A stretch of DNA of 57,655 nt, from the NCBI GenBank assembly GCA_021413735.1, contig JAIOPV010000111.1:1-57655 (forward strand), written 5' to 3'. Shown here in pieces: positions 5,525 through 57,513 of the stretch (positions are counted from its first letter, which is position 1; each line of letters opens with the position of its first letter). The notes under the pieces were generated by a model that was not told the origin of the DNA, did no database searches, and saw only the letters and a program-made list of their open reading frames with translations. This stretch comes from Planctomycetota bacterium (GTDB lineage Bacteria > Planctomycetota > Planctomycetia > Gemmatales > Gemmataceae). The position numbers and the translations under genes were made by a program.

Positions 5525-5533
5525 GGCCGTTCT

Positions 5534-5607
5534 GGCGAGCCACGGGGTTTATCCCCATGGTGCTGAACAGTTGCAGAGACCACGGGGATAACCCCCGTGG
5601 CTTGCAA
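5534..5607. repeat. Family B palindrome (copy 1)
   Basis: An inverted repeat of about 26 bp around gccacggggtttatcccc and its complement, with a ~20-nt loop, starting 10 nt after the DUF1571 stop. Copies occur at 8665-8738 and 32635-32704. Between this repeat and the next promoter (5608-5678) nothing else was seen. Confidence 0.75.
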
Positions 5608-5678
5608 AGCATTTCAACAAAACACCACCAGGCATGACGGTTTGTTCGTGAGTTCGTGAGCCGGACGGTCCATTTGGG

Positions 5679-8583: not shown

Positions 8584-8664
8584 TGTACAGAAAGAAAGAG
8601 AGAAATTCCCCAAAATGGCCAGTTTCGTGTAGGATTCCACAAGTCGAGAAGGTCGAAATGTCTC

Positions 8665-8738
8665 GCGAGCCACGGGTTTTATCCCCATGGTGTTGGCTAT
8701 CACGAGCGGAGACCACGGGGATAAACCCCGTGGCTCGC
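8665..8738. repeat. Family B palindrome (copy 2)
   Basis: gcgagccacgggttttatcc at 8665 pairs with ggataaaccccgtggctcgc ending at 8738. The copy ends 12 nt before the chosen GTG start of trpD, so it occupies the normal position of the trpD leader. Confidence 0.75.
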
Positions 8739-8750
8739 CGGGGGTGTTGT

Positions 8751-16296: not shown

Positions 16297-16548
16297 TCTT
16301 GACCCCGAATGGGGTCGGACAACATAGCCCGGGGCAAGACCGCGAAGCGGTCGCCGCCCCGGGACCAACCACCCAAACACCTGCACTCTGAAAGAGTGCG
16401 ACACAAACGCTCGCAACTCCCCCGGTGGGCAATGGTCGTTGTCCCACCCTTTCGGGGTGGATCATGGGGGTTGGGCTGGTCCTGGGGCGGCGCCTTCGGC
16501 TTGCCCCAGGCTATGTTGTCCCGCCCCTTCAGGGCGAAGACATCAGAC
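16297..16548. repeat. Family C palindromic element (copy 1)
   Basis: A long imperfect palindrome: gaccccgaatggggtcggac and 'acaacatagcccggggcaag' on the left, and 'ccaggctatgttgtcccgcc' on the right. Internal small hairpins (ctgcactctgaaagagtgcg) are present. Copies lie at 54534-54778 and 57363-57513. Open frames here are artefacts of the repeat. It follows directly on the kinase relic. Confidence 0.75.
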
Positions 16549-21527: not shown

Positions 21528-21571
21528 GCCGCTTGCGGCGTAGCGCTCTGGATCGCTACGCCGTAAGCGGC
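21528..21571. repeat. Family A palindrome (copy 2)
   Basis: gccgcttgcggcgtagcg (21528-21545) pairs with 21554-21571 with one mismatch. It lies between the secretin terminator and the convergent OB-fold-like gene. Confidence 0.75.
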
Positions 21572-21577
21572 GAACCA

Positions 21578-29738: not shown

Positions 29739-29774
29739 GCGTAGCGCTGCGAGGATCGCTACGCCGCAAGCGGC
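29739..29774. repeat. Family A palindrome (copy 3, left arm shortened)
   Basis: gcgtagcg (29739-29746) pairs with cgctacgc (29757-29764); the right side continues gccgcaagcggc, as in the other family A copies, while the left arm is truncated. It separates the permease from the convergent sulfatase. Confidence 0.6.
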
Positions 29775-29788
29775 AAAATCGATCCGTG

Positions 29789-32623: not shown

Positions 32624-32634
32624 CAACCTGCTTC

Positions 32635-32704
32635 GCGAGCCACGTGGTTTATCCCCGTGGTCTTGGGAGTTGACAAGACCACGGGGATAAACCACGTGGC
32701 TCGC
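32635..32704. repeat. Family B palindrome (copy 3)
   Basis: gcgagccacgtggtttatcc and its inverted partner, with perfect ~27-bp arms. It separates two convergent genes (stop at 32623 and at 32715). Confidence 0.8.
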
Positions 32705-36325: not shown

Positions 36326-36841
36326 GTGAAGTGCATGTTTTGCGATAACGAAGCCACGATGCACCTGACGGACATCGTGAACAAGAAGAAGCGCGAAGCG
36401 CATCTCTGCGAGAAATGCGCCCGTGAGAAGAACCTACTTCCCGAGGAACCCGGACAGCCCATCGACCTGAAAGCTCTCGTCAGCCTGATGATGGCACCCG
36501 AAGCGGTTCCGATCGCACCCACAACAACCGCCGTTCCGATCGCGTTGAACTGTCCCAAATGCGGACTAACATACGCTGCGTTCAAGGGCGAAGGGCGATT
36601 CGGCTGCGCTCACGATTACGAAGCATTCCGAAGCATTCTCGAACCGCTGTTGGAACGGGTACACCGCAGCACCACACATAACGGTAAGATTCCTGCCGTG
36701 GGTCGCGTTGCCGCACGAGCCGCGAAACTCATCGAACTCAGAGCCGAGATGTCTGCCGCAATTGGAACCGAAGACTACGAACAGGCCGCCCGCCTCCGCG
36801 ACCTGATCCGCGAGATGGAAGCCGAAGGAACCGCCGGATGA
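36326..36841 (+). CDS. mcsA: McsA-like activator of protein arginine kinase (second copy)
   Basis: A 171-residue paralogue. GTG 36326 has an excellent aaggagggg ribosome site. It repeats the layout: CMFCDNEATMHLTDI / CEKCAREKN, then CPKCGLTYAAF / FGCAHDYEAF, and a C-terminal UVR motif (EMSAAIGTEDYEQAARLRDL). It carries an extra Ala/Pro/Thr linker (PIAPTTTAVPIA). Its stop overlaps the mcsB start (ATGA at 36838-36841), so the pair is translationally coupled. This copy is therefore the likelier McsB partner. Confidence 0.85.
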   Translation: MKCMFCDNEATMHLTDIVNKKKREAHLCEKCAREKNLLPEEPGQPIDLKALVSLMMAPEAVPIAPTTTAVPIALNCPKCGLTYAAFKGEGRFGCAHDYEAFRSILEPLLERVHRSTTHNGKIPAVGRVAARAAKLIELRAEMSAAIGTEDYEQAARLRDLIREMEAEGTAG

Positions 36842-37905
36842 ACCTCGACACCTTGCTCCCCAACCTGGGCGAGTGGCTCCGCGGAACCGGCCCCGAGTCG
36901 GACGTGGTCGTATCCACACGCATTCGCCTCGCACGCAACCTCGCGGACTACCCCTTCACGGGCCGAGCCACACCCGCACAGAAAACCGAGATCGTGTCTC
37001 GCGTGAAAGAGGCCATCTCACGCGTCGAACTGCCGTTCAAACTCGACTACCACGACGTTCCCAGTATGCCGGTGCTCGACCGTCAGTTTCTGGTCGAACG
37101 GCAACTCATCAGTCGGGAACTCGCGGCTGTGCTGGAAGGGCCGCGTGGCGTGGCGTTCGATGCGAAGGAATCCGCGAGCGTGATGGTCAACGAAGAAGAC
37201 CATTTGCGGCTACAGGTTTTGCGCAGCGGCTTCGCACTTGACGATGCCTGGTCCGACATCGACAAGCTCGATGATTCGCTGGAAAGCCGTCTCGCGTATG
37301 CCTTCCACACGCAGTTCGGGTATCTGACGGCGTGCCCCACGAACGTCGGCACAGGGCTTCGCGGCAGCGTGATGTTGCACTTGCCGGCGCTGGGCCTCAC
37401 GAAGCAGATCGACAAGGTTTTCCGGGCGTTGCAGAAGATCAACCTCGCGGTTCGTGGTCTGCACGGCGAAGGCAGCCGGGCTTTCGGCGATCTGTACCAA
37501 ATTTCGAATCAGGTGACGCTCGGGAAGTCGGAACAGAAGATTCTTGGCGAGATCAAGGAGGTCATCCTGACGATCCTTCAGTACGAACGGCAGGCGCGAG
37601 CGGTGCTATTGAAGGAGCGTCGGCAGGCGGAACAGGATCGCGTGGCGCGAGCGCTCGGCACCCTCGGTAGTGCGACGATGATCACCGCAGAAGAGACGAT
37701 GGAACTGCTCTCGGTGGTGCGCCTCGGGATTCACTTGCGGTTGATTGATGATGTGCCAGCGACTGCGGTGAATCAGCTCTTCATCCAGACGCAGGCGGCG
37801 CACTTGCAGAAACTCGTCGGTCATCCACTCGACGGCGAGGAACGCAATGCGGCCCGTGCGAAGTACCTGAAAGCTCGTCTCCGCGAACTCGGGTCGCAGC
37901 GCTGA
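36838..37905 (+). CDS. mcsB: Protein arginine kinase McsB
   Basis: A 355-residue phosphagen-kinase-fold enzyme that phosphorylates protein arginines, marking proteins for ClpCP in Firmicutes. Motifs: VVSTRIRLARN near the N-terminus, VMVNEEDHLRLQ, the catalytic cysteine C166 in CPTNVGTGLRGSVMLHLP, and the nucleotide loop GEGSRAFGDLYQISNQVTLG. All fit an active McsB rather than a creatine kinase. It overlaps mcsA by 4 nt and vanZ by 1 nt. Neither ctsR nor clpC is next to it. Confidence 0.95.
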   Translation: MNLDTLLPNLGEWLRGTGPESDVVVSTRIRLARNLADYPFTGRATPAQKTEIVSRVKEAISRVELPFKLDYHDVPSMPVLDRQFLVERQLISRELAAVLEGPRGVAFDAKESASVMVNEEDHLRLQVLRSGFALDDAWSDIDKLDDSLESRLAYAFHTQFGYLTACPTNVGTGLRGSVMLHLPALGLTKQIDKVFRALQKINLAVRGLHGEGSRAFGDLYQISNQVTLGKSEQKILGEIKEVILTILQYERQARAVLLKERRQAEQDRVARALGTLGSATMITAEETMELLSVVRLGIHLRLIDDVPATAVNQLFIQTQAAHLQKLVGHPLDGEERNAARAKYLKARLRELGSQR

Positions 37906-38300
37906 TGAGGCACGCCCTTCCTTTCGTCGTGCTGTTCGTGTTCCTCGCCTTGTGGACGTGGAAGCTCCTCGAACCCAGCCCGGTTCCGGAGGCGGTTGGC
38001 GAAGTTATTCCGACCGACTTGAAGTACATCGCCTCCAAGCTGGCCCATCTTTGCGGGTATTCGTTCCTGACGCTGCTGATCGCCTGGCTGCCGCTGCGTC
38101 GCAAACAATTCTGGGTGGCCATCGCGTTGCTTGCTGGTCACGGCATCCTGACAGAAGTGTTGCAGTACGTCATGGCGATGGGGCGAACCGGGAAGGTCAC
38201 CGATGTGCTGATCGACTGGACTGGGATCACGTTGGGGTTGCTGGCGCTGCGATTGTTTTCGCGTAGCCGCGACCGAAGGGAGCGTGACACCCAAGCGTGA
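37905..38300 (+). CDS. VanZ family membrane protein
   Basis: A 131-residue protein with four predicted membrane helices (residues about 4-20, 42-62, 67-86, 105-117), matching the VanZ/YoaI-like family. The core is KLAHLCGYSFLTLLIAWLPL and DVLIDWTGITLGLLALRLF; the Glu in HGILTEVLQY is conserved. Function is uncertain; VanZ itself gives low teicoplanin resistance. It starts on the mcsB stop (TGATG), so it is the fourth gene of the operon. The last 13 residues (SRSRDRRERDTQA) are encoded mostly by the left arm of a repeat and may not be ancestral. Confidence 0.85.
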   Translation: MRHALPFVVLFVFLALWTWKLLEPSPVPEAVGEVIPTDLKYIASKLAHLCGYSFLTLLIAWLPLRRKQFWVAIALLAGHGILTEVLQYVMAMGRTGKVTDVLIDWTGITLGLLALRLFSRSRDRRERDTQA

Positions 38301-38786
38301 GAGGGCGCAACAAGTGGGAGTCGCATCAGTTGATTTCGTCAGCGAGTTCGAGGCTCTCACCAAGCAGAGCGCCGAGGCTGGCGACTTGGCCGTGTGCCCG
38401 CGATGCGAGGGGCAGGCAATCGTTCACCCACCAACAGGTGACGGGCGGCTGCGAACGTTGACGTGTGGCGCTTGCGGCTACTCGAAGCGCGGGGCCGGCC
38501 AATTCCGATACTGGCTCCGGATTGAGTGCTGCGGGCGTGTGCTGTGGGCTCGGAACGCCGCCCATCTCACTTTGCTCGAACGGTACATCGCAAGTGACCT
38601 TCGAACCGAAGCGATGTGGCCGCAAGAAAGCCGGGACAATCGTCGAATGTTACCCAAATGGGTTTGCCTCGCCCGGAACCGCGACAAATTGTTGCAGGCT
38701 GTCGCGTTGTTGCGTGCCTCACTCGTCTAACGCAGTACAAGCAGAGCGAGTGAGGCTCGACGCGCTCCCTTCGGTCGCGGCTACGC
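38261..38786. repeat. Split family D palindrome enclosing a gene
   Basis: The 24-bp left arm (38261-38284, gcgtagccgcgaccgaaggg then agcg) and the right arm (38763-38786) are perfect inverted copies 478 bp apart. Ordinary family D palindromes (43496, 53427) have the arms only 8-10 nt apart. Between the arms lies one complete zinc-ribbon gene with its own ribosome site. Confidence 0.75.
38314..38730 (+). CDS. TFIIB-type zinc-ribbon protein, function unknown
   Basis: A 138-residue cytoplasmic protein. The zinc ribbon is CPRCEGQAIVHPP ... LTCGACGYSKRG. A second block, WLRIECCGRVLWARNAAHLT, has a Cys-Cys pair, and the C-terminus is RMLPKWVCLARNRDKLLQAV. This pattern matches small 'TFIIB-type zinc ribbon' proteins scattered through many bacteria, with no known role. 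GTG 38314 is chosen for the gagaggg site 8 nt upstream; an in-frame GTG at 38284 exists but lies in the repeat arm and inside vanZ. The gene sits wholly between two 24-bp inverted repeats. Confidence 0.75.
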   Translation: MGVASVDFVSEFEALTKQSAEAGDLAVCPRCEGQAIVHPPTGDGRLRTLTCGACGYSKRGAGQFRYWLRIECCGRVLWARNAAHLTLLERYIASDLRTEAMWPQESRDNRRMLPKWVCLARNRDKLLQAVALLRASLV

Positions 38787-38787
38787 A

Positions 38788-41175
38788 TTACCCCGCTGCT
38801 TTCTTGCGACCCTCCCACTCTTCCGGCGCGATGAGAACCTGTCGGGCGTTGCTGCCGTTGTACGCGCCGACGATGCCATCCTCGGCCATGAAGTCCACGA
38901 ACCGCGACGCCTTGCCGTAACCGATGCCGAGCGCTCGCTGCAACAACGACGTACTGCCTCGCTGCTCACGAATCACAATCTCGACGGCCTGTTCATACAG
39001 CGGATCACGTTCACGCAACTTCTCGCCAACCTCGGTACCGGCACTCGCACCGGCTTCAATCTGCTCGCGAGTCTTCAGGTTCAGCAGTTCGCTGTCGTAG
39101 TTCGGCGTCTCGGTCGCAATCGACTCAACGACCCGCTCAATCTCCTCGTCTTCGAGGAAGGCACCCTGTGCTCGCGTCGTCACGCCGGTTTGCAGGAACA
39201 GCATGTCGCCCCGGCCCAGCAGCCGCTCTGCTCCCTTCTCGTCGAGCACGACGGCACTGTCCGAACGGTTCGTGACGCGGAAGCAGATTCGTGCCGGCAT
39301 GTTCGACTTGATGAGGCCGGTCACCACGTCCACGGTCGGCTTCTGCGTGGCGAGGATCAGGTGAATCCCCGCTGCTCGTGATTTCTGCGCCAGCAGGATG
39401 ATGTTGCCTTCGATCTCCTTCTTCATCTTCATCATCAGGTCGCCAACTTCGTCAATCACGATCACGATGTAAGGCATCTTGCGAGGAATGTTCTTCAGGT
39501 CTTCGACGCTGTCGGGGTTCATTCGTCGCGTGATTTCCTCGTAAGGCAGCTCGTTGTACGCGGCGATGTTTCGCACGCGGGCACGGTGCAGGAACTCGTA
39601 GCGTTCCTCCATCTTGTCCACAGCCCACGACAGAATCGCGTCGGCTTTCTTCTCGTCCTTCACGACCGGCGTCATGAGGTGCGGGATCTGTGCGAACTGT
39701 GTGAGTTCCACCTTCTTGGGGTCGATCAGAATCATCCGGCACTCGTCGGGCCGGCGCGTGAGCAGCAAGCTCGTGATGATCGTGTTCAAACAGACCGACT
39801 TGCCGGTGCCGGTGCTGCCCGCGATGAGCAGGTGCGGCATCGTCGAGAGGTCGTATGCGAGCGAACGGCCTTCAACGTCCTTGCCGACGAACAGCGGCAG
39901 TTTGAACTTCGCGAACTTCGACGTGGAGGCGGTCGCGGTGACGAGGTCTTTCAGGCAGACCGTCTGGCGAATCTCGTTCGGCACTTCGATGCCGACAGTG
40001 TTGCGACCTGGCAGCGGAGCCACGACACGCACGCTCGGCACCCGCAGGTTCAACGCCAGATCGTCAGCGAGCGTGGTCACTTTGTTGAGCCGCAGCCCCG
40101 TTTCCAGCGACACCTCGTATTGCGTGATGACCGGCCCCGTATGGATGCCGACGACCTTGATCTTGATGCCGAAATCGAGGCACGTCTTTTCGAGCAGCGC
40201 CGCCATCTCACGCAGCTTGTGTTCGTGATCTTCCACCGGGAACGGCTCGGGGTCCTTGAGCAGCGTCAACGACGGGAGTTTGTACGGTGGCGCGGCCGGT
40301 GGTTCCGCTGGCGTCGGCAGCGGAACGGATGCCGGGGCAGCGGCGCGAACCATCGGAATCGTGGCCGGTTCCGTGTGAACGTGAATCGGAATATCCACGA
40401 CCTTCGCCGGTTCTGGTGTCGGCTCGGGATGCGAAACTTTCGCTTCCACGGCTGGCGTGATCGTGATAATCGGTGGCGTTTCGGCCTTCGCGGGTGGTGT
40501 TGCTTCCGCTGTTTTCGGCGTGCGGACCGGTGCGGCGGGAATTGCAGCTTTCACAGCTTTCGCGGCGACATCCAGACCGGTCAACACTTGAGCGCTGCCG
40601 TCGGCGATGCGATCGTTGCCCCACACCGCTGCGGCCCAAATTCCTCGCGTCGCGGCCCACACGACCCGCAACACACCCAGCACGAAGAAGTCCGCTGCGA
40701 GCAGCAACCCCAGGAACACCGCACCACCGAACACGATCTCGGCCGTCAGCGGATCGACTGCATCTTCCAGCCCGAATCGCAGGTACGCACCCACGGAGCC
40801 GCCACGTCCCGCCGCCGACGCATGTGAGAGGCCGACATCGAACCAATCAGCAGCGATCGCGGCGCAGGTCGTGAGGGTGGCCCAGCCGAGCAACCGCACC
40901 GTGAGGCGGATTGGCGAACGGTTCACGACCAGCAATCCAGCGAGCACGAACCAGGCGGCGAGGAACACGCACGACGCCCAACCGAGTGCATCAACGAGCA
41001 TCGACGCGGCATCGTCGCCAGTTTCGCCGAGGATGTTCTGCGTTCCCGAGAGCGGGTGGTAACTCGCGACGGCTGCCGTGAGCAATCCACCGGCAGCGAA
41101 CAGCGTCAGCGCGACCGCGTCGAGGCGGAACCGTGGCACGAGTGGTACGACCGGTTCCTCGGATTTCGCCGACAT
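38788..41175 (-). CDS. ftsK: DNA translocase FtsK/SpoIIIE
   Basis: A 795-residue translocase that moves chromosome ends through the division septum. The N-terminus has four membrane helices (about residues 19-170). A Pro/Ala/Glu-rich linker runs from about 205 to 300. The motor has Walker A G453-STGTGKS-460, Walker B YIVIVIDEVGDLMM, and ILATQKPTVDVVTGLIKSNM. The C-terminal gamma winged helix (SLLQRALGIGYGKASRFVDF) reads polar KOPS-like sites. ATG 41175. Its stop is 2 nt beyond the repeat arm at 38786. The upstream gap holds the divergent trmL start. Confidence 0.95.
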   Translation of the reverse strand: MSAKSEEPVVPLVPRFRLDAVALTLFAAGGLLTAAVASYHPLSGTQNILGETGDDAASMLVDALGWASCVFLAAWFVLAGLLVVNRSPIRLTVRLLGWATLTTCAAIAADWFDVGLSHASAAGRGGSVGAYLRFGLEDAVDPLTAEIVFGGAVFLGLLLAADFFVLGVLRVVWAATRGIWAAAVWGNDRIADGSAQVLTGLDVAAKAVKAAIPAAPVRTPKTAEATPPAKAETPPIITITPAVEAKVSHPEPTPEPAKVVDIPIHVHTEPATIPMVRAAAPASVPLPTPAEPPAAPPYKLPSLTLLKDPEPFPVEDHEHKLREMAALLEKTCLDFGIKIKVVGIHTGPVITQYEVSLETGLRLNKVTTLADDLALNLRVPSVRVVAPLPGRNTVGIEVPNEIRQTVCLKDLVTATASTSKFAKFKLPLFVGKDVEGRSLAYDLSTMPHLLIAGSTGTGKSVCLNTIITSLLLTRRPDECRMILIDPKKVELTQFAQIPHLMTPVVKDEKKADAILSWAVDKMEERYEFLHRARVRNIAAYNELPYEEITRRMNPDSVEDLKNIPRKMPYIVIVIDEVGDLMMKMKKEIEGNIILLAQKSRAAGIHLILATQKPTVDVVTGLIKSNMPARICFRVTNRSDSAVVLDEKGAERLLGRGDMLFLQTGVTTRAQGAFLEDEEIERVVESIATETPNYDSELLNLKTREQIEAGASAGTEVGEKLRERDPLYEQAVEIVIREQRGSTSLLQRALGIGYGKASRFVDFMAEDGIVGAYNGSNARQVLIAPEEWEGRKKAAG

Positions 41176-43495: not shown

Positions 43496-43555
43496 GCGAG
43501 CCGCGACCGCAAAGGAGTGGGGAACTTTTCCCGCTCCCTTGCGGTCGCGGCTCGC
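43496..43555. repeat. Family D palindrome (copy 1)
   Basis: gcgagccgcgaccgcaaagg at 43496 pairs with the inverted arm ending at 43555, with a ~8-nt loop. It lies between the convergent methyltransferase and glnA genes. Confidence 0.8.
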
Positions 43556-53426: not shown

Positions 53427-53484
53427 GGCGAGCCGCGACCGCAAGTGGGAAACGTTCTCCACTCCCTTGCGGTCGCGGCTCGCC
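53427..53484. repeat. Family D palindrome (copy 2)
   Basis: ggcgagccgcgaccgcaagt and its inverted partner, loop about 8 nt. It shares the left flank cgcagtttggcgagccgcga with copy 1 at 43496. Nothing else was seen in 53485-53626. Confidence 0.8.
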
Positions 53485-54533: not shown

Positions 54534-54778
54534 GTTGACTTCGCCCTGAAGGGGCGGAACAACATAGCCTGGGGCAAGACGGCTTCGCCGTCGCCGCCCC
54601 AGGAGTTGCACAAATCCATGATCCACCCTGAAAGGGTGGGACAAGAACCGTAGCCATCTGCAGATGCGTGTCGCACCCTTTCAGGGTGCCTTCGTTTTGG
54701 TGGTTGGTCCCGGGGCTGCGACCGCTTCGCAGTCTTGCCCCGGGCTATGTTGTCCTGCCCTTCGGGGCACAGACATGA
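54534..54778. repeat. Family C palindromic element (copy 2)
   Basis: tgaaggggcggaacaacata on the left and 'gggctatgttgtcctgccct' on the right, with internal ccctgaaagggtgggacaag and gcaccctttcagggtgcc hairpins. It fills nearly all of the gap between the NlpC/P60 gene and the next minus-strand gene. Open frames here are repeat artefacts. Confidence 0.8.
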
Positions 54779-57362: not shown

Positions 57363-57513
57363 ATGTCTTTGCCCCGAAGGGGCAGGAGAACATAGCCCCG
57401 GGCAAGACTGCGAAGCGGTCGCAGCCCCGGGACCAACCACCAAAACGAACGCACCCTGAAAGGGTGCGACACGCGTTTGCAGATGGGTGACCGCTCTTGT
57501 CCCACCCTTTCAG
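57363..57513. repeat. Family C palindromic element (copy 3, interrupted)
   Basis: Same left half as other copies (gccccgaaggggcaggagaa ... caccctgaaagggtgcgaca ... ttgtcccaccctttcagg), but where copies 1 and 2 continue 'gtggatcatgg' this one switches to transposase DNA at about 57513/57514. Confidence 0.75.

Follow-up and report, generated by a model that had tools for sequence, protein, structure and literature searches.

Between a vanZ-like gene and ftsK, the window (the whole stretch of DNA analysed here, 57,655 nucleotides of a Planctomycetota genome that we call G000) carries the two arms of an inverted repeat with one complete gene between them. The left arm, GCGTAGCCGCGACCGAAGGGAGCG, lies at 38261-38284 on the plus strand; the right arm, at 38763-38786 on the minus strand, is the exact reverse complement of it. 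The two arms agree at 24 of 24 positions, stand 478 bp apart and are placed around the gene in doublet orientation, which bears out the first-pass annotation of two perfect 24-bp inverted arms enclosing a single zinc-ribbon gene. When the window is searched with a degenerate 20-nt arm core, allowing up to three mismatches, only two places are found, both belonging to this pair (shuffle mean 0.05). Upstream lie a UVR-motif gene and, as a conserved neighbour, the gene of a McsB-like ATP:guanido phosphotransferase (36838-37905, plus strand; PF00217, E 2.7e-66), with 96% identity in G008, the closest relative compared as judged by protein identity at the vanZ-ftsK locus. Downstream, the convergent ftsK gene (38788-41175, minus strand; PF01580, PF17854 and PF09397) shows 93% identity in G008 over residues 313-795.

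The vanZ-like gene itself (37905-38300, plus strand; PF04892, E 1.9e-9) has a 74% identical orthologue in G008 that runs into the same arm. As had been noted earlier, the left arm encodes the end of VanZ: the frame passes through the arm and stops at 38300, its last codons being formed by the arm and the start of the DNA that follows. The C-terminal end reads SRSRDRRERDTQA in G000 versus SRSRDPKGSA in G008, a tail that consists for the most part of repeat sequence. The 478-bp insert between the arms (38285-38762) is present as a single copy in the genome and is absent from the corresponding site of G008. Its sole gene is the zinc-ribbon gene (38314-38730, plus strand), and no transposase family matches it. 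Two candidate starts are available, a GTG at 38284, whose first base is the last base of the arm, and a GTG at 38314, which we favour. A Shine-Dalgarno-like GAGGG, located by eye, directly follows the vanZ stop (38301-38305, plus strand), 8 nt before the second of these codons, and we propose that the gene is near enough behind vanZ to be translated from the vanZ message. A hairpin within the insert, GCCTCACTCG / CGAGTGAGGC, extends over the stop codon of the zinc-ribbon gene (38716-38756, plus strand); it is mostly paired in the predicted fold and is possibly the gene's own terminator. When the locus as a whole is folded in silico as single-stranded RNA, the arms still pair around the gene, and the outer stem predicted in this way may have retained some function in termination after the insertion.

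The encoded protein combines a CPxC...CxxCG zinc ribbon, which we take to be of the kind that goes by the name of TFIIB-type zinc ribbon, with a conserved tail. Distant relatives are encoded on plasmids of other phyla, in 22 records (Streptomyces 13, Priestia 7, Nostoc 1, Kitasatospora 1), with identities of 30-35% in 20 of the 22, among the matches listed. An alignment of seven sequences has 20 invariant columns and keeps the four cysteines as well as a tail with LWA.N..H, LP.W and NR. The plasmid homologues and the kept columns indicate that the gene is real and comes from a scattered family. Of 18 further genomes from the genus, none gives a match at E<=1e-3. A search of all 148 relatives returns only two weak matches (G093 and G109), which we reject as chance-like, one having an internal stop and the other overlapping a ParA-like frame in another phase; an alignment-based search of the rest of the phylum gives matches in 2 of 391 other genomes (E<=1e-6). 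Among the profile collections, Pfam gives sub-threshold zinc-ribbon matches only, NCBIfam two matches that are both far below cut-off, and PHROGs a best match to phrog_12574 (E 5e-4, unknown function) followed by three weaker ones. No relatives were found in phage records, PDB or PADLOC, and pattern scans of genome contigs and viral contigs yielded none that could be confirmed. The GC content of the insert (0.613) and of the gene (0.614) is like that of the window (0.603) and of the neighbouring genes (0.58-0.62), so composition provides no foreign mark. Finally, a search for inverted repeats around eight homologues (exact 11-nt words, 700 bp on each side) finds none at six of them and, at each of the other two, one inverted match of 11-12 nt far outside the gene; outside the present locus, the zinc-ribbon gene is thus not seen to bring flanking arms along with it.

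The arms are members of a dispersed family whose behaviour fits that of REPINs, doublets of inverted REPs that go together with a RAYT (REP-associated tyrosine transposase). G000 contains 45 arm sites with up to two mismatches and 60 sites of a GCAAGGG variant, ACCGCAAGGG, the two lists having no place in common, and G008 contains 143 arm sites with up to three mismatches; the reversed-pattern controls give 0, 1 and 0 sites, respectively. Two intact REPINs of the window, at 43496-43555 and 53427-53484, fold as short-loop hairpins, as had been described for the palindromes of "family D" in the first-pass annotation, and their arms are of the variant type, with ACCGCAAGGG in place of ACCGAAGGG. 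We sorted 58 loci of G000 by script, allowing up to four changes in a partner arm. These loci are drawn from the 45- and 60-site lists and do not comprise all sites (C137:17405 and C150:70857, for example, are left out though their positions pair). The resulting 62 rows consist of 39 doublets with loops of 0-23 nt, 17 single arms, one of which (L001) is cut by a contig end, and six split candidates. Five opposite-orientation pairs account for ten of these rows, eight of them single and two split (L235 and L253). The 41 loci of G008, taken from the first 100 of its 143 sites with the vanZ-ftsK locus added, give 33 doublets, 18 single rows (two of them in opposite-orientation pairs) and no split.

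Among the six split candidates of G000, an exact partner core is present at the vanZ-ftsK locus alone. L065, L067, L235 and L253, each of which depends on a partner with four changes, are probably due to chance. The partner at L059 (contig C109, L059:1540-1902) also carries four changes, and we take this REPIN-like pair to have a real long loop of 308 bp on the basis of the top local alignment score of far partners (18) and the nested inverted repeats inside; no convincing gene is seen in it. The exact arm core also turns up in 66 stretches from records of Bryobacterales, Solibacter and others, some of these stretches being G008's own. The widest opposite-facing neighbours in this set lie about 90 bp apart (L114, up to two changes), and one partner with three changes is about 195 bp off (L123); no gap in the set is of gene size. 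As to structure, the G008 doublet at the vanZ-ftsK site has a predicted fold of -30.9 kcal/mol (z -9.25), and a lone arm folds no better than shuffles. At five of the seven two-mismatch sites of G008, among the 100 of 143 matches listed, the two changed positions pair with each other in the arm's small stem. Covariation of this stem is nevertheless not claimed, given that the loci are nearly only CCC/GGG (65 of 73 in G008) and that the arm by itself shows no fold beyond shuffles.

The link to a RAYT comes from G008, in which a Y1 (HUH) transposase gene on contig C41 has a doublet of this family on each side, with 0-4 changes in the arms. Its best curated match is the NCBIfam model "REP-associated tyrosine transposase" (NF047646; 53.5 bits, E 2.3e-14), below the cut-off of 80, and its match to Y1_Tnp reaches 30.4 bits (cut-off 23). 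G000 encodes a gene 82% identical to it on contig C93; the visible flank there has a nested palindrome that is related in sequence but confined to one side, and shows no match to the arm at up to three changes. In G004 and G001, the closest relatives of the C93 gene (L181 and L182) are flanked on either side by palindromes related in sequence. Most of the other Y1 genes whose loci were scanned lack a nearby arm of this family. At the outer end of the vanZ-ftsK arm, and of most copies of its variant, stands GTAG, which is not directly followed by a stable hairpin. This foot is TTTAG in the RAYT-flanking copies of G008 and CGAG in two window copies of the GCAAGGG variant. The distribution of TnpA class 3 given in excerpts of PMC6006769, Planctomycetes and Acidobacteria, is similar to that of the arm family; the CnGA foot and Y----Q motif reported there for this class are not what we see, which is, by eye, GCGA as the four bases before the small stem and YVENNP as the tyrosine motif.

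The dispersed inverted doublets, the single REPs and opposite-orientation pairs, and the Y1 transposase gene with doublets on either side are all like the REPIN/BIME system with its RAYT (TnpA-REP), or REPtron, and they provide a planctomycete palindrome family linked to a RAYT. A REPIN has been defined as a doublet of inverted REPs whose spacer is less conserved (PMC3116915, in part). REP spacers are, in the sections of PMC3733652 that treat them, variable in sequence and size, with 20-100 bp in most dimers, and REPs are placed there at the ends of coding regions. Spacers are variable here too. The vanZ-ftsK locus, by contrast, with 478 nt and a complete unrelated gene in G000 as against 7 nt in G008, falls outside the short spacing of a REPIN, and for this reason we call it an interrupted REPIN.

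The first-pass annotation had advised a search for empty sites in close relatives, and G008 offers one. The same palindrome is found at the same point of vanZ, with a 7-nt loop, CGTGATA, that holds the vanZ stop and no gene, and is followed by ftsK; the left and right flanks both align with those of G000 across the arms. The zinc-ribbon gene is encoded at none of the 16 other vanZ loci of the genus, in eight of which ftsK is in view. Inspected by eye, G014 lacks both the palindrome and the gene, G013 carries a different sequence of about 1 kb at the junction, and G003 has a REPIN of its own near the end of vanZ together with a reverse-strand frame. A frame similar to the latter is present in G002, G004, G009 and G007, which do not have this palindrome.

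With a bare palindrome in G008 and no zinc-ribbon gene at any of the 16 other vanZ loci, the simplest history is that the REPIN came first and the gene later. In this history, which we consider very likely, a REPIN would have occupied the vanZ-ftsK junction already in the common ancestor of G000 and G008, and 478 bp of foreign DNA with one zinc-ribbon gene would later have entered its hairpin loop in the lineage of G000, so that the arms at 38261-38284 and 38763-38786 are the two halves of the former REPIN. The direction of the change, gain rather than loss of the gene, is one that we infer. The insertion event is well supported, as a single case, and of the two options left by the first-pass annotation it sustains the one in which a gene was inserted into a palindrome. 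Taken as a whole, the explanation that a horizontally acquired zinc-ribbon gene entered the loop of a pre-existing REPIN is probably correct.

One empty site cannot alone polarise the change, and the gene might conversely have been ancestral between the arms, with G008 having deleted it and retained a 7-nt loop. We judge this very unlikely, as no match exists in the 18 other genus genomes, the gene is missing from the other vanZ loci mentioned above, and there are no direct repeats from which a deletion ending cleanly at the loop of an inverted repeat could arise. It is less credible still that two independent single REPs landed by chance on either side of the gene. Single arms are common enough (17 rows in G000 and 18 in G008, though eight and two of them, respectively, form part of opposite-orientation pairs), but a joined doublet occupies exactly this site in G008, and the arms combine full identity with doublet orientation. 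Equally hard to believe is an assembly artefact in which a short fragment was misjoined at repeated arms. The assembly has 293 contigs, of which the window is one, and contains the arm about 45 times; against this, both flanks are collinear with G008, the insert matches the window in GC content, and a 24-bp repeat is short compared with the k-mers usually employed in the final rounds of assembly.

The two G000 arms at the vanZ-ftsK site differ together from those of G008, which fits the suggestion of the first-pass annotation that arm identity is kept up by conversion, as does the concerted difference at L028/L218, a doublet common to both genomes with no gene in its loop. The arms here are of the type commonest in G000, and those of G008 at this site are of the type commonest in G008. 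This would also be in line with a mobile cassette, that is, an arm-gene-arm unit that the RAYT would have mobilised instead of the gene encoding it, and that would have replaced the resident REPIN via homologous arms. RAYT genes are always flanked by two inverted REPs according to excerpts of PMC2817692, so the zinc-ribbon gene occupies the position of a RAYT. However, the insert has no second copy in the genome, concerted arm differences arise at L028/L218 as well, where there is no gene, the site seems to have held a REPIN already, and the loci examined have no other gene between an arm pair except RAYTs between doublets. Listing what lies between arm pairs, as had been proposed, reveals no second gene-filled loop in the 58 loci of G000, the 41 of G008 or the 66 stretches with an exact core, which lends a recurrent mobile cassette no support. 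We hold the cassette to be improbable, and the idea that the arms bound a gene-carrying mobile unit runs counter to a single-copy insert whose arms seem older than the gene. It had also been reasoned that arms beside unrelated genes would speak against a link between arms and gene; arms are indeed spread across the genome, but they occur there as short hairpins, and this does not count against an insertion at the present site.

Mobile insertion cassettes consist of a passenger gene between the ends of an insertion sequence. The interrupted REPIN resembles those described in excerpts of PMC3913671 in having one passenger gene between inverted repeats and no transposase inside, and differs from them in that there is no second copy, no duplication is seen, and the ends seem to be older at the site than the gene. 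Insertion sequences that target REP sequences are reported in parts of PMC1525189 and PMC8450116, and they too bring foreign genes into REP elements. Unlike these, the insert here has no transposase, is present once and lies in the loop of a doublet. A non-exhaustive search of the open-licence literature, by titles and the opening lines of abstracts, found no printed description of a gene within a REPIN loop.

If the REPIN did precede the gene, the mechanism we prefer, with a likelihood that we would not place above the midpoint, is that the loop was opened and then healed with a captured fragment. The hairpin, extruded or single-stranded, would have been opened in its loop by the RAYT or by a hairpin nuclease, and a captured DNA fragment would have healed the opened loop. 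Nucleases of the SbcCD type could open such a loop. A RAYT could do so as well, since single-stranded REPs are substrates of the E. coli TnpA-REP, which cleaves them at either the 5' or the 3' side and is also able to recombine them (PMC8266576, in part). Ku was found in none of five genomes searched, with a control search positive only in Bacillus subtilis among 14 genomes, which makes end joining of the Ku type unlikely. When the insert borders are compared with G008 by eye, neither a target duplication nor another junction signature is seen. We also considered an integron cassette, the motif of which is GTTRRRY. A GTCTAAC overlaps the stop codon of the zinc-ribbon gene, but no matching GTTRRRY is found by eye at either border, and this candidate was rejected.

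G000 and G008 have two other doublets in common (L028/L218 and L057/L212) and one single arm (L054/L171). At both doublets the flanks are conserved and the loops differ in sequence and in length, which suggests that REPIN loops may be exchangeable. On this small sample, the gene-filled loop of the vanZ-ftsK site looks like an extreme case of the usual variation in loops. In a broader version, REPIN loops would be exchange sites that the RAYT or another hairpin nuclease opens repeatedly, with new DNA fitted while the arms stay, and an occasional horizontally acquired gene would be captured in this way. We regard this generalization as improbable; if true, it would make REPINs dispersed, integron-like gene-acceptance sites near gene ends. 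Should loop turnover be general, it would help to explain the variable spacers of REPs and would give REPINs a role in gene acquisition. Should it not be, the locus would be one neat accident in which repeats shape gene ends, the last residues of VanZ being repeat sequence. The G000 and G008 sites together constitute a before-and-after pair for the entry of a foreign gene into a REPIN.

At two intergenic places (L003/L199 and L018/L155), a REPIN in G000 is matched at the same position in G008 by an unrelated palindrome or a repeat array, as if these sites had been re-used by different elements. Other palindrome families are also present. A family with a GCCGCTTGCGGCG core is represented in the window at 2748-2812, with related repeats at 21550-21574 and 29753-29777, and palindromes with this core lie on both sides of a different RAYT-like gene of G000 (contig C69, L193), which suggests that each palindrome family may have its own RAYT. 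On contig C15 of G008 (L102), a Y1 transposase-like gene is located between palindromes of yet another family, CGGCGCGGCGTCAGCCCGCCGG. The window further holds three copies of a palindrome family beginning with GCGAGCCACGGGGTTTATCCCC (5531-5611, 8661-8739 and 32629-32704). Near the contig end, inverted repeats of 114 nt at 54654-54767 and 57373-57486, 93% complementary and 2.6 kb apart, enclose what appears by eye to be an SDR gene together with other frames, and a related copy is found at 16304-16404.
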